A stretch of DNA of 41,236 bases from Alistipes sp. (lineage in GTDB: Bacteria > Bacteroidota > Bacteroidia > Bacteroidales > Rikenellaceae), in assembly GCA_017629145.1 (NCBI GenBank), contig JAGBXR010000043.1, positions 1 to 41,236 of the forward strand. The letters run 5' to 3'. Position 1 is the stretch's first letter. Each line of letters begins with the position of its first letter. The position numbers and the translations under genes were made by a program. Of this stretch, positions 26,053 to 39,235 are shown piece after piece. Below the pieces are notes generated by a model that saw nothing but the letters and a program-made list of their open reading frames with translations, searched no databases and was not told the origin of the DNA.

Positions 26053-28824
26053 ATGAAAAAGTTTTCAACAGTGATTAAGAATTGGTCTTGCCGTGCTGCT
26101 CTTGTGGCAGCATTGGCAATGCCAGCTATCTCTTGCAGCAAGGCGTACGATGATACACTGGTTCGCGAGGAAATTGAGCAGATCAAAAAGGAACTTGCCG
26201 AGTTGGAGGAGAGCCTCAATACCGAGCTTAACGCCATCAAGGAGCTTCTCGCAGGTCAGATTACCATCACCAAGCTTGAGCCCAAGTCGGATGGTAGCAT
26301 CCTTGTAACACTCTCTAACGGTAGCACCTTTACGGTATATCCAAAGGGTGCAACACTTCCAGAGAACCTTATCACCGTTCTCGAGAATGAGGAGGGTGTA
26401 CTCTGCTGGGCGCAGTACGATAAGGATGGCAACGCAACGCTCATCCTCGTTGATGGCGAGAGTGTGCCTGTAGATACAGCAACTCCCGAGGTGCGCGTTG
26501 GCGACGATGGCGTGACGATCGAGATTTCGTTCGATGGCGGTCAGAGCTGGACAGTTACTGGCTACAGCGAGTCTGTTGCCGATGCTCTTATCAGCAATAT
26601 CGAGGTTGTATACTCTGACTGGCAGGTAGATAGCGAGGGTAATCCATTGCCTCTCTACTGCGTCGTTACAATGACCGATGGTACCGAGGTGAAGGTTGGT
26701 ATGAACAGCCGTCTTATCCTCGACTACGACTCGGCATATGTTGCTGCTGGTACGAAGTCGGAGCTTGTGGCTACAGCCGAGGATGCTGCGGACTTCATCA
26801 TCACAACGCCTCAGGGTTGGAGCTGTGATGTTACTCACGACGCGAAGGCTTCGCGCTTTACAATCAGCATCTCATCGCCTTCAAGCGCCGAGATTAAGAG
26901 CGGCGAGGCAGTAGGTGAGGGTGTTGCGAAGTTTATCGTTGTCTTTAACAATGGTATGTCGGCTATCGCAAGCATTAAGCTCTCTACAACTCCTGTATAC
27001 TACAGCTATCTTCTCAACAATATCACCCTCACAGTAGGTGGTGGTGTCGAGGAGATTGTTTGTGGTCTTGTTGAGGCTTCGGCATACTCTGCTGCTACGG
27101 CTGCCGAGAATGCAAACAACTATCTTGCCGACAACTCACAGAAGTCGGCTTATGGCGTGACATTCAAGGATGCTCTTGCGGTAAATATCAGCGCATCGCA
27201 GCTCTGCTCAACATTGGCTTCAGGTAAGGAGTATACATTCTGGTATGCTATTCCAAAGGCTGCAAATGGCGTGAAGAGCGTAACAGCTGATGAGATCTCT
27301 ACCGAGGAGTATATCTATTGTGTTCCTACATTCGAGGTTAGCAATGAGTCGTTCTTCGATGTAAATGTTAAGTTCGAGGTATCGGGCTCAAAGGGCTTCC
27401 TCGTAGGCTACTCGCCAAAGGAGAGCTACTCGAATAGCGCTTGTTTGAATTTCTATCGCGACAATAAGGACTCGGGCATCACTCTCAAGCAGGATGTAGC
27501 CTACAATGGCTCATTCCTCGAGTACTTCGGCAGCACAGGTAGCGCTCTCGAGCAGAATACTACCTACACAGCTTGGTATTTGGAGTGTGGTGGCTGCGAC
27601 GATGTGACTACCGACAACATCTGCCGCTGGGACTTCACAACCAAGGCATTCGAGAATGGTGGTAATGTGGAGATTACATCTTCGGATGCGGTTGTAGACT
27701 ACACAACCATCGAGGTTAAGCTCAACACCGAGGGTCATATCTATATGTACTACACATTCCTTGAGTCTTATATGGTTAGCGGTTATCCAAGTGATGAGGA
27801 TAAACTCAATATGTTGCTTTCAGAGGGTACCAAGCTTCGTACTAATGAGGAGGCAATTGTTCGTTACCGCAACGCAACTCCTGGCTCAGAGCTTACACTT
27901 GTAGCTATGGCAGTAGGCGAGGATGGTAAGTATGGTAAGATCTTCACGCAGGAGTTTGCTACGAAGTCTATCGTATATAGCGATAGCCTCGAGCTTACGC
28001 TTACAACGCCTAACTCTCCATCTATCACAAGCGTGCGCGCAATGGTATCGTGCGAGAATGCTGCATACTACAACTTCGTGTGCACACCTACCGGTAGCAA
28101 CGAGTGGAAGAAGACTTATGGCGGTTCGGCAAAGAAGGCTGGTGAGTATATGATTATCAACCCAACAGGTAAGGGCGTATGCTCAACAAAGAATGAGGCA
28201 TACGCATTGGAGACCGACGACAATGGCAACAGCTATATCGTTGTAAGAGGTCTTACCGAGTTGGAACACGCATTGGTTGTGATTGCTTATGATGCCGAGG
28301 GTAACTACTCGCAGGCCAAGTCTGTATACTTCACTCCAACTATCGATATGGGTACTATCGTGCGTCGTACGGATCCTAACTGGGCTGATGGTAAGCCAAC
28401 TATAACTTTGGGTAAGACTCAGGAGATCGAGTTCTTCAACATCTCGTGGTATGTAGCGCCTGTTGAGGGCTATACAGCATATACAATGGCTGGTAATTCA
28501 AACTGGTTGATCGAAGATTGCCCTACAGTTGAGCAGCTTATGGCTTACATCATTGCTGATTGTAGTAAGGATGACTCGGTTACTTCGGATCACGGTCAGA
28601 AGTGTGAGTACTCGGCAGATGGCTACTCAATCTCTTGGGAGAATCCTGATGGCACACTCTACGAGGAGCATAACTTGCCAGGCGTATACAACTCGTTCTT
28701 CTATGGCGATAAGGGTTACACTATGATCTACACTATCTGGGTAGATAGCGATGGTAACTTCCACGAGCCTATGGTGTACGACCCAGCCGAGGATATGGAG
28801 ATTACGGATTGGACTTGGAACTAG
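26053..28824 (+). CDS. DUF4988-type surface lipoprotein, paralogue 2
   Basis: This 923-residue protein has a lipoprotein signal with lipobox PAISC followed by SKAYDD. Then come a heptad coiled coil (VREEIEQIKKELAELEESLNTEL region), the DUF4988-like domain (GSILVTLSNGSTFTVYPKG, VLCWAQYDKDG, VTIEISFDGGQSW) and a long beta-rich region. A cysteine-bearing stretch, YLECGGCDDVTTDNICRW, and the shared C-terminal TIWVDSDGNFHEPMVYDP follow. It is closer to paralogue 3 than to paralogue 1. The gap to the previous gene is 47 bases with no terminator, so they are co-transcribed. Its function is unknown; surface glycan binding or adhesion is the best guess. Confidence 0.8.
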   Translation: MKKFSTVIKNWSCRAALVAALAMPAISCSKAYDDTLVREEIEQIKKELAELEESLNTELNAIKELLAGQITITKLEPKSDGSILVTLSNGSTFTVYPKGATLPENLITVLENEEGVLCWAQYDKDGNATLILVDGESVPVDTATPEVRVGDDGVTIEISFDGGQSWTVTGYSESVADALISNIEVVYSDWQVDSEGNPLPLYCVVTMTDGTEVKVGMNSRLILDYDSAYVAAGTKSELVATAEDAADFIITTPQGWSCDVTHDAKASRFTISISSPSSAEIKSGEAVGEGVAKFIVVFNNGMSAIASIKLSTTPVYYSYLLNNITLTVGGGVEEIVCGLVEASAYSAATAAENANNYLADNSQKSAYGVTFKDALAVNISASQLCSTLASGKEYTFWYAIPKAANGVKSVTADEISTEEYIYCVPTFEVSNESFFDVNVKFEVSGSKGFLVGYSPKESYSNSACLNFYRDNKDSGITLKQDVAYNGSFLEYFGSTGSALEQNTTYTAWYLECGGCDDVTTDNICRWDFTTKAFENGGNVEITSSDAVVDYTTIEVKLNTEGHIYMYYTFLESYMVSGYPSDEDKLNMLLSEGTKLRTNEEAIVRYRNATPGSELTLVAMAVGEDGKYGKIFTQEFATKSIVYSDSLELTLTTPNSPSITSVRAMVSCENAAYYNFVCTPTGSNEWKKTYGGSAKKAGEYMIINPTGKGVCSTKNEAYALETDDNGNSYIVVRGLTELEHALVVIAYDAEGNYSQAKSVYFTPTIDMGTIVRRTDPNWADGKPTITLGKTQEIEFFNISWYVAPVEGYTAYTMAGNSNWLIEDCPTVEQLMAYIIADCSKDDSVTSDHGQKCEYSADGYSISWENPDGTLYEEHNLPGVYNSFFYGDKGYTMIYTIWVDSDGNFHEPMVYDPAEDMEITDWTWN

Positions 28825-28854
28825 TCTTTCAAAAACGATTAGCACATAACGATT

Positions 28855-31602
28855 ATGAAAATATTATTCAAAAATATGCGCAGAGTGATGGGCTACGCAG
28901 CAGCAATTACAATGCTGCTGCTGCCTGCAACCTCTTGCTCGAAGGCTTTCGACGACAGTCAGTGGTGGGATGAGCTCGAGCAGATTGAGGAGGATATCAA
29001 CGCTTTGAAGGAGCGTTTCAATAGCGAGATTAACTCTATCAAGGAGCTCCTTGATGGTAAGATAGCTATACGTAGCGTCGAGACCAAGGCCGACGGCAGC
29101 ATCCTTGTGACATTGACCAACGGCAGCACGTTCACCGTATCGCCAAAGGGTGCAAAGCTCCCAGCAAACCTTATCACCGTAATCGAGAATGGTGATGGTG
29201 TGCTCTGCTGGGCAAAGTACAACAGCGAGGGCGAGGCAGAGTTCATCCTTATCGATGGTGACTATGTGCCTGTTGCTACGGCAACTCCCGAGTTGCGTGT
29301 TGGTGACGATGGCGTATCTATCGAGATTTCGTTCGATGGTGGTGCAACGTGGGTTGTTACAGGTTACACCGAGTCAGCTGCCGATGCACTTATTGGCAAT
29401 ATCGAGGTGGTATATTCTGACTGGCAGACCGATAACGATGGCAACCCATTGCCTCTCTACTGCATCATCACGCTTACCGATGGCAACGAGGTGAAGGTCG
29501 GTATGAACAGTCGCATTATCCTCGAGTACGACTCGGCATATGTTGCTGCTGGCACAAAGTATGAGCTCGTAGCTATGGCCGAGGGTGCAACCGACTTTAT
29601 GGTCACTTCACCTAAGGGTTGGAACTGCGATGTTGAGCACGATACAGATGCTGGTCGCTTTACGATTGCTATCTCGGCTCCTACAAGTGCCGATATTAAG
29701 AGCGGCGAAGCAGTAGGTGAGGGTGTTGCCAAGTTGGTGGTAGTATTCAACAATGGTCTCTCGTCTATCGCAAGCATCAAGCTTTCGACAACACCTGTAT
29801 ACTATAGCTATATTCTGGACAACATTACCATCACCGTTGGCGGTGGTGTCGACGAGATTATCTGCGGTCTTGTTGAGAGTGCAAGCTTCTCGGCAGAGGT
29901 GGCTGCTGCTAATGCAACCAAGTATATGGCAGACAACAGCGACAAGTCGGCCTATGGCGTGAAGTTCGCAGACTCGCTCACCGCAACTATCAAGGCTTCG
30001 GATCTCTGCTCAAACCTCAGTGGCGACAAGAGCTACACCTTTTGGTATGTTGTACCAAAGGTTGGCTTTAGCGGCGTTACGGCTGACGAGATCTCGACAG
30101 AGGAGTATGTATATTGCGCTCCCAAGTTCGAGGTGAGCTCTGTTGCATATTTCGAGGCCGATGTCAAGTTCTCGGTATCGGGCTCTAATGGTTACCTTGT
30201 AGGTTATGCTCCAAAGTCGGAGTTCTCGAATAGTAGCTGCTTGGATCTCTATCGCGACAATAAGGATTCTGGCATTAATCTCAAGCAGGATACCGACTAT
30301 AGCGGTTCTTTCGTAGGCTTCTTTGGCGCCGAGGGTGATGTTCTCAAGCACAATACAACATACGTTGCGTGGTATTTGGAGTGTGGCGGTTGCGACGACG
30401 TTACAACCGACAATCTCTTCAAGTGGGAGTTTACAACCAAGGGTTTTGCCGATGGCGGAAACCTCGAGATTAGCCTCTCGGACGCTGTTGTAGAGTATAC
30501 ACGTGTCAGCGCAAAGCTCTCTACTTCAGGACATATCTATATGTACTACACATTCCTTGAGTCGCATATGGTCAGCGGCTATCCAAGCGATGAGGATAAA
30601 CTCGCGTTGTTGCTCGAGGATGGCGTTGCTTGCCGTACGACAGATACTGTTGTCGCAGAGTATGAGAATGCAGAGCAGAACTCTACACTTACACTCGTAG
30701 CTGTAGCTGTAGGTAAGGATGGTAAGTATGGTAAGATCTTTACACAGGAGTATACAACAAAGAAGATTGTATACAGCGAGCTCGTCCCAGTTGCCGAGGT
30801 TGTAGGTACTCCTTCGATTATCAACAGCGAGTTTAAGGTTGCGTGCGAGGGTGCTGTCAGCTATCTCTATGTATACGCAGAGAGCGGTAGCAACAAGTGG
30901 AAGAAGATTCTTGGCGGTACGCTTGCCAAGGCTGGTGAGTATTTGGTTATCAACGCCAATACATCGCGCGTAAGCAGCGTATCGGCCGATAGCAACATCG
31001 TAATCAGCGGTCTTGTGCCCGATTTGAACTACGTGGCGGTTATCGCAGCTGTTGATGCTAATGGCCTTATCTCGAAGCCAGTAGCTGTAGACTTCAGACC
31101 TACTATCGACCTCGGTACATTGGTTATGCGTGGCGATGCAAACTGGGCAGAGGGTAAGCCTGGTATCGTTAAGGGTGAGGTTGTAGATCGTGGTGACAAT
31201 GCCGCATACCGCTTCGGTTGGTACTGCTCGCCTGTTAAGGGTTATACAGCCTACACAATCTCAATGTACAAGAGCCACGTCGATAGCGAATTTACTACCG
31301 ATGAGGGTGTTGACGTTCCAAAGTTGATTGCTTATATTGTCGAGAACTGCGATATTCAGTATGGTGGTACGCTCAACAACAAGATCAATGGTGCAATCTG
31401 CGAGTACTCGGAGGATGGTTACGACTATACAGTCAATGAGTGGGATGGTTCTATTACTACGCACTCTGATATTGGTGTATACTCGCTTTGCCCACAGGGT
31501 ATCAAGGCAGATTCGATGATATACACAACGTGGGTTGATCCCGATGGTAACTTCCACGAGCCTTTTGCTGTGAGTCCAGTAAACTGGGTCGAGGAGGAGT
31601 AA
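28855..31602 (+). CDS. DUF4988-type surface lipoprotein, paralogue 3
   Basis: This 915-residue protein has a lipoprotein signal with lipobox PATSC followed by SKAFDD. The coiled coil is WWDELEQIEEDINALKERFNSEI, after which come a DUF4988-like domain and the beta-rich body. It shares with paralogue 2 the segments YYTFLESxMVSGYPSDEDKL and YLECGGCDDVTTDN. It ends TTWVDPDGNFHEP like its neighbours. It lies 30 bases after paralogue 2 and is the last gene before a strong terminator. Short DNA stretches in the DUF4988 region are nearly identical to paralogue 1 (near 23572 and 29319), suggesting recombination between copies. Its function is unknown. Confidence 0.8.
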   Translation: MKILFKNMRRVMGYAAAITMLLLPATSCSKAFDDSQWWDELEQIEEDINALKERFNSEINSIKELLDGKIAIRSVETKADGSILVTLTNGSTFTVSPKGAKLPANLITVIENGDGVLCWAKYNSEGEAEFILIDGDYVPVATATPELRVGDDGVSIEISFDGGATWVVTGYTESAADALIGNIEVVYSDWQTDNDGNPLPLYCIITLTDGNEVKVGMNSRIILEYDSAYVAAGTKYELVAMAEGATDFMVTSPKGWNCDVEHDTDAGRFTIAISAPTSADIKSGEAVGEGVAKLVVVFNNGLSSIASIKLSTTPVYYSYILDNITITVGGGVDEIICGLVESASFSAEVAAANATKYMADNSDKSAYGVKFADSLTATIKASDLCSNLSGDKSYTFWYVVPKVGFSGVTADEISTEEYVYCAPKFEVSSVAYFEADVKFSVSGSNGYLVGYAPKSEFSNSSCLDLYRDNKDSGINLKQDTDYSGSFVGFFGAEGDVLKHNTTYVAWYLECGGCDDVTTDNLFKWEFTTKGFADGGNLEISLSDAVVEYTRVSAKLSTSGHIYMYYTFLESHMVSGYPSDEDKLALLLEDGVACRTTDTVVAEYENAEQNSTLTLVAVAVGKDGKYGKIFTQEYTTKKIVYSELVPVAEVVGTPSIINSEFKVACEGAVSYLYVYAESGSNKWKKILGGTLAKAGEYLVINANTSRVSSVSADSNIVISGLVPDLNYVAVIAAVDANGLISKPVAVDFRPTIDLGTLVMRGDANWAEGKPGIVKGEVVDRGDNAAYRFGWYCSPVKGYTAYTISMYKSHVDSEFTTDEGVDVPKLIAYIVENCDIQYGGTLNNKINGAICEYSEDGYDYTVNEWDGSITTHSDIGVYSLCPQGIKADSMIYTTWVDPDGNFHEPFAVSPVNWVEEE

Positions 31603-31665: not shown

Positions 31666-31956
31666 TTATCGAACGATTATCGCATTCACAAGTCGCATAC
31701 CTGCGCGTGCGTTGAGGCGTTCGGCAATATTTTCGCGGTGGTAGAATAGCTCCTGGCGTAGTACGCTCGAGGCCATACGCACGTGTAGTATATGGTTTTC
31801 GAGGCGCAGTTCTATGGTGTTGTCGGCAGCGTAGTTACCCACCGTCTCGCGCCAATAGTCGGGCAGATGACCCTCGGCGAGCTTGGCTGCTACGTATGGT
31901 CGCTTGAAGAACTCCTCCAGCACCTCGCCTATTCTTACGGTCTTGCTTCGTTTCAT
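31666..31956 (-). CDS. DUF721 / DciA-like protein
   Basis: This 96-residue protein matches the DUF721 pattern. It has an N-terminal helix ending in a basic patch, the central WRETVGNYAADNT (typical W-x-x-x-V-G), then beta strands LRLENHILHVRMASSVLRQEL and a C-terminal helix. Members of this family include DciA, the ancestral loader of the DnaB replicative helicase, which would fit the neighbouring recF. The Bacteroidetes version is short and its loader role has not been shown by this sequence. Its ATG overlaps the recF stop by four bases, so the two are co-translated. Confidence 0.85.
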   Translation of the reverse strand: MKRSKTVRIGEVLEEFFKRPYVAAKLAEGHLPDYWRETVGNYAADNTIELRLENHILHVRMASSVLRQELFYHRENIAERLNARAGMRLVNAIIVR

Positions 31957-33041
31957 CGCTCTACGCCTCCATCTTTAACCTGAAACAGACGATACTCCGC
32001 TCCTGCCTCATTTAGCGTGCGCTGCAGGCGGTGCTTGTTGCAGTCGGTGATGAATATCTGTCCGAAGATATCTCCGCCCACGAGTCGCAACAGCTCGGCT
32101 ACGCGTTGCATATCGAGTTTGTCGAACAAATCGTCGAGCAGAAGTATAGGACGCTCCTCGCCACTCTCGGCAAGCATACGATACTCCGCAAGCTTAAGTG
32201 CTATGAGAAACGACTTCTGTTGACCCTGTGAGCCGAACTTACGCAGCGGAAAACCACCTATTGAGAATAGCACATCGTCGCGGTGGATGCCCGATGTAGT
32301 GAATTCGTTGGCAAAGTCCTTGCGGCGCGAGGCGAGCAGAAGCTCGGCAAGTGGCGTGGTTTGCAGCTCGGAGCGATACTCCATATCGATTGTCTCGCGC
32401 TCGGACGATAGTAGCGCATAGTAATACTCGACGAGTGGGCGCATTCGCGCTATAACCTCGCTTCGCGTGTTGAATATGGTGTCGGCAGCGATGCTCATTA
32501 TCTGGTCGTAGATGAGGAGCATCTCCTCCGAAGGGTTCATTTTCAGCAGTTTGTTGCGTTCGGCGAGCGCAGTGTTGTAGCGCATAAGCGCTGCAAGGTA
32601 GCCGCGGTCGAGATGCGATAGCAGACGGTTGAAGTAGCGACGGCGCTCCTCGGCCGAGTCGCTGATGAGTGAGCTGTCGGCTGGCGATACTACGACGATA
32701 GGTATGCATCCCACGTGGTCCGAGAGTTTGTCATACTCCTTGCCATTGCGTTTGAGAGTCTTGCCACTGCGGCGTGCGAACGAGCATACCACCTGCTCGG
32801 GACGGCTGTCATCGCGCTTGAAACCGCCGTCAAGCAGGAAGAAATCCTCGTTGTGGCGTATGCTCTGCGCATCGGTTATTGTGTGCATCGAGCGTGCCGA
32901 CGATAGGTAGTGTATAGCATCGAGGATGTTGGTCTTGCCTGCGCCGTTGTCGCCAACGAAGCAGTTGATACCGGCCGATAGTTTCAGGCTCTCTTCAGCA
33001 ATGTTCTTGAAATTTATGATTGACAGATTCTCGAGTCTCAT
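31953..33041 (-). CDS. recF: DNA replication and repair protein RecF
   Basis: The start is placed at ATG 33041, giving 362 residues, the usual RecF length, and beginning MRLENLSIINFKNIAEE. The frame extends 177 bases further upstream, but that part has no family similarity and is AT-rich intergenic DNA. Visible motifs are Walker A GDNGAGKTNILDAIHYLS (about 31-48), the ABC-type signature FGSQGQQKSFLIALKLAEY (about 275-293) and Walker B PILLLDDLFDKLD (about 302-314). RecF is an SMC-like ATPase that helps load RecA at gapped DNA. It is coupled to the DUF721 gene downstream. Confidence 0.95.
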   Translation of the reverse strand: MRLENLSIINFKNIAEESLKLSAGINCFVGDNGAGKTNILDAIHYLSSARSMHTITDAQSIRHNEDFFLLDGGFKRDDSRPEQVVCSFARRSGKTLKRNGKEYDKLSDHVGCIPIVVVSPADSSLISDSAEERRRYFNRLLSHLDRGYLAALMRYNTALAERNKLLKMNPSEEMLLIYDQIMSIAADTIFNTRSEVIARMRPLVEYYYALLSSERETIDMEYRSELQTTPLAELLLASRRKDFANEFTTSGIHRDDVLFSIGGFPLRKFGSQGQQKSFLIALKLAEYRMLAESGEERPILLLDDLFDKLDMQRVAELLRLVGGDIFGQIFITDCNKHRLQRTLNEAGAEYRLFQVKDGGVER

Positions 33042-33151
33042 AAGCGCATCTTTACCGAACAAAAATACCACTTTTTGTGCTTTGGTGCAAGCTAATTTGT
33101 TAAATAGCGTTTTTTTTCGTGCCAAAACTATGAAATTAGAACTATTTGTTT

Positions 33152-33159
33152 TAATTTTG
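33152..33159 (+). promoter_or_regulatory. Candidate -7 box upstream of the TPR gene
   Basis: TAATTTTG at 33152-33159 matches TAnnTTTG exactly, about 70 bases before the TPR gene. No good TTTG is found at the -33 distance. The rest of the 186-base divergent gap to recF holds nothing else I can name. Confidence 0.5.
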
Positions 33160-33227
33160 CAAGTTGAATTGCACAAAGCATAGTGTACCGAAAAGGCAAA
33201 CGTAATAATTAAAAACATAAACTAACT

Positions 33228-33869
33228 ATGACAAACAAAGTAAATCATCTCGAGAATGACATTATGGTAGAGACCAAGGGTAAGTTGGAGCTCTTCTTTG
33301 ACAAGTATGGCAACAAGCTCCTTTTGGGTCTTGGTTGTGTAACTGCTCTTGCTATTGTTTTCTTCCTCGTATCAAGCATCGCAGAGAACCGTGAGGCAAA
33401 GCGTGAGGCACAGGCTGACGCAGTTCTCGCTGTAGCTCTCAATGGTGAGGGTGCTGCCGAGGATTATGTAGCAATCGTTGAGGAGTATGGCAAGACAAAG
33501 GCTGGTAACACAGCTTCATACCTTGCAGGTGCTGCTTACCTCAAGGCTGGCGATTTGGAGAATGCAAAGCTCTACCTCGAGAAGTATAACGATGCAAAGG
33601 GTGCTGCTGGTGAGATTCTCAACACTTTGGTGTTGGTTCTTCGTGGCGACTTGGCTGTTGAGCAGAACGACTTGCTCAGCGCAGAGGCTCTCTATCGCAA
33701 GGCTATGGAGGCAAGCAACGACCCTGTAACTTACGCTGATGCAGCAGAGAAGCTCGCTTTGGTATACCAGGCTATGGGCGAGGAGGCAAAGGCAGAGCAG
33801 TGCTACAAGGATGTAGTTGCAAAGTATCCAGAGCAGGCTCGTTCTTACAGCAAGCTCATCTCAAAGTAA
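33228..33869 (+). CDS. Membrane-anchored tetratricopeptide repeat protein
   Basis: This 213-residue protein has a short cytoplasmic N-terminus, one membrane helix (about 29-51; KLLLGLGCVTALAIVFFLVSS) and TPR-like helical repeats to the end (for example ASYLAGAAYLKAGDLENAKLYLEKY and AEKLALVYQAMGEEAKAEQCYKDV). The layout resembles YfgM-type ancillary proteins, which associate with the Sec translocon, but that role is only an analogy. Codon use is highly biased, suggesting abundant expression. In Bacteroidales this gene is commonly followed by ribH, as it seems to be here, although the ribH homologue is unusual. Confidence 0.85.
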   Translation: MTNKVNHLENDIMVETKGKLELFFDKYGNKLLLGLGCVTALAIVFFLVSSIAENREAKREAQADAVLAVALNGEGAAEDYVAIVEEYGKTKAGNTASYLAGAAYLKAGDLENAKLYLEKYNDAKGAAGEILNTLVLVLRGDLAVEQNDLLSAEALYRKAMEASNDPVTYADAAEKLALVYQAMGEEAKAEQCYKDVVAKYPEQARSYSKLISK

Positions 33870-33929: not shown

Positions 33930-34346
33930 ATGGCAAACAACGAGGCCCTGGCAACGAATATGAAGTTCGGTATAGTTGTGGTCCGTGAGTTTGAGGAGTT
34001 TGTAGATAACCATTTCATCTCTACGGTAAACGAGCTTGCAGAGTTGGGTTGTGCTCCACAGAATGTTTTGGTGCGCACAGTGCCCAAATTGCACGATGTG
34101 GTTATAGCTACCCAGTTTTTTGCGGAGTATACCGATGTCGATGGCGTGATTATCCTTGCCCCCGAAAACAGGGTTATGGGTATGCTCTCGTTGATGAATG
34201 GCGTGGTACAAATCCAGATTCAGTGGAATATGGTTGTGGCTATCGGTGGCAGTGAGACTGCGTCAAACATCGTTGAGATGATCGCAATGCAGAACGATAT
34301 GGAGCTCAACGCTCCAGAGAATGTCGCTGCACCACGCATCTCGTAG
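33930..34346 (+). CDS. Lumazine synthase (RibH) homologue lacking the active-site motifs
   Basis: From ATG 33930 (138 residues; a GTG at 33903 is an alternative) the protein follows the RibH fold pattern. MKFGIVVVREFEEFV lines up with the first strand and helix, LVRTVPKLHDVVIATQF with the segment that normally reads TVPG-[AS]-[FY]-E-[LI]-P, and DVDGVIILAPE with the strand that normally leads into GCV-I-x-G-x-T-x-H. The Gly-x-Phe-Glu motif is gone. The G-x-T-x-H-F loop with the catalytic His is replaced by a shorter APENRVMG. The C-terminal helix is also shortened. It is therefore unlikely to make lumazine. It follows the TPR gene, where ribH is usually found. It may be a repurposed or decaying ribH; the reading frame is intact and codon use normal. 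Confidence 0.75.
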   Translation: MANNEALATNMKFGIVVVREFEEFVDNHFISTVNELAELGCAPQNVLVRTVPKLHDVVIATQFFAEYTDVDGVIILAPENRVMGMLSLMNGVVQIQIQWNMVVAIGGSETASNIVEMIAMQNDMELNAPENVAAPRIS

Positions 34347-38866: not shown

Positions 38867-39235
38867 ATGGATTTTGAAGGAAAAGTTTTGGAGATTCTCC
38901 CTCCCGTGTCTGGCCAGTCGGCACGCGGTACGTGGGAGCGTCAGACGGTAGTCTTCGAGCAGGCCAACAAGCAGTATGGCAAGGAGATAGCTGTGACATT
39001 TATGAATAAGGCACAGGATGTAGCATCACTGCGTGTTGGAGAGAGCTACACCGTATCGTTCGATATTGAGTCTCGCAACTACCAGGGTCGCTGGTATACC
39101 GATGTTCGCGCTTGGCGTGTGCAGCCTCTTCAGTCATCTGCACAGCCTCCTGTACAGGATATGCCTCCATTTATGGAGGAGCCGCAGCCATCGTACAGCG
39201 CAGGTGCTGGGGTGGTTGATGATATGCCATTCTAA
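38867..39235 (+). CDS. DUF3127 OB-fold-like protein
   Basis: This 122-residue protein matches the small Bacteroidetes DUF3127 family. An OB-fold-like core (about 1-85; MDFEGKVLEILPPVSGQSARG, KQYGKEIAVTFMN and NYQGRWYTDVRAWRVQP) is followed by a proline-rich flexible linker and the acidic tail VVDDMPF. The acidic, aromatic end resembles the tail of single-stranded-DNA-binding proteins, so a nucleic-acid role is possible but unproven. It lies 34 bases after the radical SAM gene and is followed by a large terminator. Confidence 0.85.
   Translation: MDFEGKVLEILPPVSGQSARGTWERQTVVFEQANKQYGKEIAVTFMNKAQDVASLRVGESYTVSFDIESRNYQGRWYTDVRAWRVQPLQSSAQPPVQDMPPFMEEPQPSYSAGAGVVDDMPF

Follow-up and report, generated by a model that had tools for sequence, protein, structure and literature searches.

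A selected, catalytically dead RibH-derived protein that outlives the riboflavin pathway in Rikenellaceae

The oligomers of lumazine synthase, RibH (PF00885, TIGR00114; structures 1rvv and 1hqk), are pentamers or 60-mers, and the N-terminal arm, helix 4 and the kink between helices 4 and 5 help to build the pentamer and the capsid. Two RibH proteins are present in one organism in the case of RibH1 and RibH2 of the Rhizobiales, for example Mesorhizobium loti (2obx). Pseudoenzymes maintain an enzyme fold under purifying selection without the catalytic residues.

Here, we analysed a RibH-derived protein encoded in a stretch of 41,236 nucleotides from Alistipes sp. (GenBank assembly GCA_017629145.1, contig JAGBXR010000043.1), hereafter referred to as the window; its genome of origin (G000) is 76% complete. 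The protein is predicted to have the same fold as RibH, but differs in the absence of five catalytic residues, 27 core residues and the N-terminal arm, and in the absence of any pathway found in its genome. The pentameric riboflavin synthase of archaea (2b98, 2b99) catalyses a step of the pathway, whereas the window protein has neither pathway nor active site. The pair of RibH proteins in Rhizobiales has a counterpart in one relative of the window's genome, Rikenellaceae bacterium SIG176 (see below). The active site of 2obx binds a ligand, as judged from the structure title, which names an inhibitor complex, whereas the native copy of SIG176 is without the catalytic residues. There is also a likeness to pseudoenzymes in general, in which the fold is likewise kept under purifying selection with the catalytic residues absent. 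No report of a RibH pseudoenzyme or dead RibH, or of lumazine synthase in Alistipes, was found among the papers listed in the literature searches.

The ribH-derived gene and its lost active site

The gene for the catalytically dead RibH-derived protein (33930..34346, + strand) is an intact ORF of 138 aa, with an ATG at 33930 and a second in-frame ATG at 33960, the latter being the start of the conserved core MKFG of 128 aa. In a profile search, PF00885 matched residues 11‒76 (4.4e-06, 27.1 bits, cut-off 26.7), placing the protein in the DMRL synthase family as the earlier note on this DNA had supposed. The NCBIfam equivalog TIGR00114 gave 17.6 bits and did not reach its cut-off of 84.6; the same model gave 155.8 bits for a canonical RibH (L012), 189.4 bits for the second RibH of SIG176 and 21.3 bits for a dead form (L194) of g20, another Rikenellaceae genus. 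The gene order of the window is dciA (DUF721, PF05258; 31666..31956) and recF (31953..33218), both divergent neighbours on the ‒ strand, followed on the + strand by a TPR gene, the RibH-derived gene, an alpha/beta hydrolase gene, murF and ddl (recF, murF and ddl were identified from translations). The RibH-derived gene lies at the orthologous position and is an orthologue of ribH. Among sequences with a name, its nearest relatives come from Alistipes or Rikenellaceae MAGs, the best of them, at 85% identity, being from water buffalo colon. A profile search of the window's genome detected this single RibH-family match, and a second ribH elsewhere was looked for and not found in the 76%-complete assembly.

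Two other features of the window were recorded. Upstream, a tandem ORF pair of 923 and 915 aa (26053-31602, + strand) carries a DUF4988 domain (PF16378) in each member, both with a lipoprotein-like start as read from the sequence and with no further Pfam family at 0.001. Downstream of the dead ribH, the gene run includes a DUF3127 (PF11325) protein (38867-39235, + strand), and this run is present in some group-a relatives.

Alignment of the window protein with canonical RibH from its own genus located the losses. The PGTFE of the canonical protein, corresponding to the G-x-F-E substrate motif, is PKLHD in the window protein, and the G-x-T-x-H loop, the catalytic GCVIQGDTRHFD loop, is replaced by APENRVMG (34158..34181, + strand), the loss of both motifs being as first noted. 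The deletion, at first considered small, in fact amounts to 27 core residues (155 aa reduced to 128 aa from the core start), of which six are missing around the catalytic loop and 21, comprising helix 4, the catalytic Arg and the GNKG loop, at a junction located at 34247..34248 (+ strand). The positions F/W22, N23, H88, R127 and K135, which we take to be the catalytic or substrate residues in the numbering of Bacillus subtilis lumazine synthase, were mapped with a 12-residue offset; all five are present in 52/52 canonical proteins, and none is kept in any of the 93 unique dead proteins (82 from Alistipes and 11 from g20, the SIG176 protein L131 standing outside this set). Together with the PF00885 match and the gene order, this count upholds the initial reading, in which a homologue of RibH occupies the usual place of ribH but has lost the active site. 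The N-terminal arm with NLS is present in 50/52 canonical proteins versus 0/93 dead proteins (L131 being counted in neither set, as also for the C-terminal ending below). The replacement loops differ by subgroup, being PENRVMG in group a and acidic, such as ENDNSPEY, in group b, and no common new motif is visible among them in the alignment.

All structure predictions were made on monomers. The window protein was predicted with confidence to form a compact RibH fold, and a confident RibH fold was also predicted for a g20 dead form, using an alignment (A4) that included nine Alistipes dead rows and is therefore not wholly independent of the Alistipes result. The predicted retention of the core fold, and the pentamers or 60-mers formed by RibH, would favour a RibH-derived pentamer or shell acting as a scaffold. 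We consider this reading improbable, because the N-terminal arm, helix 4 and the kink between helices 4 and 5 are gone; for the same reason, the RibH-type shell suggested earlier is unlikely.

Riboflavin pathway, origins and selection

We searched 101 genomes of the genus, consisting of the window's genome and 100 others. PF00885 detected 34 canonical RibH (E 3.1e-51 or better) and 41 weak matches, and a profile built from the latter (A1) extended the RibH-family gene to 94 genomes, 34 with a canonical and 60 with a dead form, including 38/38 genomes that are at least 90% complete. The seven genomes without an A1 match (G010, G018, G037, G052, G069, G070 and G086) are 63‒87% complete. RibBA was found in 32 and RibE in 33 of the 101 genomes, all within the 34 with canonical RibH; neither was found in any of the 67 genomes without canonical RibH. 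The window's genome, at its 76% completeness, gave no match to PF00926, PF00677 or PF01872. RibD_C matches in dead-form genomes were short ORFs (224‒243 aa) or fragments, except in G094. In that dead-RibH genome, in which RibBA and RibE were not found, a 368 aa full-length RibD-like ORF was observed (contig C22:764-1303); a remnant, another role and contamination are candidate readings of it. A second set of 48 genomes, picked from 80 named loci and with 17/48 sharing an identical RibH ORF with loci of the 101-genome set, gave the same pattern: RibBA was absent in 27/27 genomes with truncated dead RibH and present in 20/20 with canonical RibH, L131 being the single dead form accompanied by RibBA.

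Riboflavin synthesis therefore appears, from these gene contents, to have been lost from the window's genome and its dead-RibH relatives. The earlier note had set a new role and the loss of riboflavin synthesis against each other as alternatives; both seem to hold. RibF was found in 93/101 genus genomes, the window's among them, so flavins would be needed and riboflavin would presumably be obtained from outside. These results indicate riboflavin auxotrophy in many animal-gut Alistipes. This contrasts with the available text of PMC4403557, in which all Bacteroidetes among 256 human-gut genomes are predicted riboflavin producers; riboflavin roles and transporters are catalogued in PMC6593275, likewise as far as its available text goes. 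Some of the dead proteins score above the RibH cut-off of Pfam, so that annotation may overcall riboflavin synthesis.

The same relation was observed within the family. Among 101 family genomes, A1 matched in 90, and in 57/57 genomes at least 90% complete, of which 48 carry RibBA. In g20, truncated RibH was found in 11 genomes, none of them among 76 RibBA-positive genomes, and canonical RibH in six genomes, all six with RibBA; one further g20 genome (G185, 85% complete) had neither RibBA nor a RibH-family match. The deletion pattern of g20 is unlike that of Alistipes, with PGTAE or a similar sequence and the YPDG segment being retained in most g20 forms. RecF served as the species marker. Its tree, with 101 rows and the root placed on other families, required four changes of the dead label: one each for groups a+b (99/97), groups c‒g (100/96), the dead forms of g20 (99/91), which are the sister of the canonical g20 forms (100/95), and L131, which falls among the canonical rows (83/81). 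In an AU test on the earlier set of 78 rows, in which L131 was still grouped as canonical, a single clade of the truncated Alistipes forms was not rejected (p 0.345), and the minimum is for this reason set at three: as judged from these trees, dead RibH would have originated at least three times, and four times on the best tree. The dead RibH of the window is thus not a case of private decay. A sequencing or assembly artefact was also considered, and is ruled out by the dead forms in 60/101 genus genomes and in 11 genomes of g20; the case of a motif left intact in close homologues was not seen in any of the 60 dead-form sequences of the genus, all of which were inspected.

L131 is the RibH of SIG176, a MAG. 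It is a nearly full-length protein encoded at the TPR locus, with all five catalytic positions changed or missing, and this native RibH scored 47.7 bits to TIGR00114. The same genome carries a Pfam-confirmed cluster ribD-ribE-ribBA-ribH (L232 17799-19528 and L233 142-1950). The second RibH encoded there looks unlike the Bacteroidales type, and we infer a foreign origin for its gene. The native copy has therefore lost catalysis with a substitute present, and is still kept. It looks like an early stage, in which the loss of residues runs ahead of the large deletions.

These observations bear on the possibility that the dead protein, its active site rebuilt, is still an enzyme or binds flavin or lumazine, or that it acts on riboflavin uptake. 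The RibH fold is kept, and the presumed need for riboflavin import, together with the wide presence of RibF, would suit a role in uptake. However, the equivalents of F/W22, N23, H88, R127 and K135 are lost throughout the 93 dead proteins, the substitute loops vary between subgroups, and the dead form of SIG176 coexists with a full rib cluster, leading us to regard this reading as very improbable. The flavin binder suggested at the outset is likewise not supported, given the loss of the five active-site positions tested. On the regulator suggested along with it, the results speak neither for nor against.

Across the order, 247 Bacteroidales genomes were searched for RibBA and with the profile A3, and counted by hand from the lists. 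A3 matched in 167/201 RibBA-positive genomes, 34/201 being missed, and in 7/46 RibBA-negative genomes. Besides the window's genome, these seven comprise G200, G208, G224, G302, G304 and G414; the RibH of G224 (L218), the sole sequence inspected from these six, retains the active-site motifs. Outside Rikenellaceae, no A3 match was found in 39/45 RibBA-negative genomes, the reach of A3 being limited there. Within that reach, RibH elsewhere in Bacteroidales thus usually seems to go with the pathway, and, because it is mostly lost with the pathway in other families, a second role would not be general. A general moonlighting of RibH across Bacteroidales was considered and set aside, most RibBA-negative genomes of other families being without an A3 match.

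We then estimated dN/dS (Nei-Gojobori) on pairs sharing no locus, counting as usable those pairs with usable dS. The dead gene gave a median of 0.071 (range 0.02‒0.16; 19 of 23 disjoint pairs usable), compared with 0.103 for the TPR gene (20 pairs), 0.055 for recF (19 pairs) and 0.033 for canonical RibH (10 of 11 pairs usable, one over 58 codons only). Identity to the window protein ranged from 30 to 70% in 41 A1 rows, and no internal stops were present in RibH-family genes among the matches listed in the genus and family searches. A low dN/dS with identity down to 30% is not drift. The frame first described as intact and well conserved is indeed intact, but the sequence is divergent, yet strongly constrained, and the related genomes share the loss under purifying selection, as had been suggested for checking. 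Enzyme fold, missing catalytic residues and purifying selection are thus combined as in a pseudoenzyme, with a putative non-catalytic function; relaxed selection or a broken frame, the marks of a pseudogene, were not found. Slow decay of a pseudogene, its apparent conservation reflecting a recent loss, could account for the deletion of whole segments, and RibH is usually lost with the pathway in other Bacteroidales families. We find this explanation hardly credible in view of the absence of internal stops among the matches listed, the narrow range of dN/dS in 19/19 usable pairs, the confident compact predicted fold, and the 60 genus genomes that carry a dead form, with identities to the window protein as low as those given above for the 41 A1 rows. 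The maintenance under purifying selection makes a new or second role likely, as the earlier note had suspected. The observation is also larger than first noted: a selected, dead RibH-derived protein outlives the pathway in Rikenellaceae.

The retained surface and a proposed docking role

To compare the two edges of the sheet, canonical positions conserved at 90% or more were grouped by topology, the beta-to-alpha loops forming the catalytic edge and the alpha-to-beta loops the opposite edge. With the boundaries of the edges drawn from topology, though after inspection of the alignment, the 34 positions of the catalytic edge were kept at 9% in the 82 Alistipes dead proteins, 16% in the 11 g20 dead proteins and 26% in L131, whereas the 14 positions of the opposite edge were kept at 91%, 68% and 100%, and the remaining 32 positions at 42%, 48% and 72%, respectively.

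Three segments of the opposite edge were located by alignment on the + strand of the window, their conservation counts being made with L131 grouped as canonical. In the first, GCAPQNV, the loop from helix 1 to strand 2 (34047..34067), the canonical G30, C31, N35 and I36 are kept in 90, 81, 77 and 86% of the 93 dead proteins, the window protein having V at position 36. In the second, FFAEYTDVD, from helix 2 to strand 3 (34116..34142), A55, T58 and D61 are kept in 93/93 unique dead proteins. The third, WNM, from helix 3 to strand 4 (34224..34232), has its Trp in 52/52 canonical Rikenellaceae RibH and in 91% of dead forms, being lost in subgroup f; among 17 RibH sampled from other Bacteroidales families, none has Trp at this position (15 Tyr and 2 His). 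At the C-terminus, the window protein ends in R-I-S (34335..34343, + strand), in agreement with the ending kept in dead forms, a hydrophobic residue plus N, S or C. Of these forms, 93/93 terminate in N, S or C, and 88/93 have I, V, L or F as the penultimate residue. Canonical Rikenellaceae RibH ends in I or V followed by N or S in 52/52 cases, and the ending pattern fits 1/17 sampled RibH of other families. The presence of both the Trp and the C-terminal ending in canonical RibH indicates that the surface kept by the dead forms is in part a trait of Rikenellaceae which the active enzyme already possesses. The family-specific hydrophobic-Asn/Ser C-terminus of Rikenellaceae RibH (L001-L211), shared by active and dead forms, is a possible C-terminal recognition motif.

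We consider it probable that the dead RibH is kept because Rikenellaceae RibH has a second, non-catalytic docking role. The observations on which this explanation is based are the predicted fold, the loss of the catalytic residues, the absence of the pathway, the gene position, the selection, the multiple origins and the contrast between the edges. The lumazine-synthase activity would have been lost in a lineage from which the remainder of the riboflavin pathway disappeared, and the compact alpha/beta domain would remain as a docking or adaptor protein. Its docking surface would consist of the sheet edge opposite to the active site, with the loops into strands 2, 3 and 4 (GC..N, FFAEYTDVD and WNM), together with the last helix and the C-terminal tail with its hydrophobic-Asn/Ser end. 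With the pathway lost or a second ribH present, the catalytic edge would be free to decay and the fold free to shrink. The second role likely predates the loss of catalysis, and we infer that it consists in protein binding.

Alternatively, the dead protein could have acquired a wholly new function after pathway loss, unrelated to the active enzyme. The truncation of the dead forms, the new subgroup-specific sequences in the former catalytic loops and the absence of the NLS arm from 93/93 dead proteins are in line with such an exaptation. It is nevertheless rather unlikely, in that separate lineages share the opposite edge and the C-terminal ending, both already found in canonical Rikenellaceae RibH, that SIG176 retains its dead copy despite a whole rib cluster, and that the replaced loops are without a visible common new motif. 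The docking role inherited from the active enzyme is therefore preferred.

A candidate partner was sought in the neighbourhood. The gene directly upstream (33264..33869, + strand) encodes a membrane-anchored TPR protein (YfgM-like; PF09976 24.2 bits, cut-off 25.5), and in 207/211 Rikenellaceae loci, many of which represent one genome under two ids, a TPR gene directly precedes the gene for dead or canonical RibH in the same orientation. It is also found beside RibH in 18/19 chosen loci across the order Bacteroidales. The exceptions in Rikenellaceae are four loci out of the 11 with g20 dead forms: in L194 and L197 the TPR gene is 2‒3 kb off, and in L201 and L202 it is absent from the sequence stretch examined. 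The dead RibH is kept in these four loci without an adjoining TPR gene, indicating that its retention is not merely due to the neighbour. If the protein is like Escherichia coli YfgM, the TPR part would presumably face the periplasm; in 114 TPR proteins, the excess of K/R was before the membrane segment in 36, equal in 34 and after it in 44. From its position, the TPR protein is a weak candidate for the partner of RibH.

We give roughly even chances to the wider proposal that Rikenellaceae RibH is a two-function protein, with lumazine synthesis and a perhaps essential docking role, the partner of which may be the TPR protein or another conserved protein, and that the auxotrophs and the strain with a second ribH carry separation-of-function alleles. 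If this is true, a textbook vitamin enzyme would have an additional, hidden function in a common family of gut bacteria, and the dead RibH forms would be natural separation-of-function variants with which to find it.
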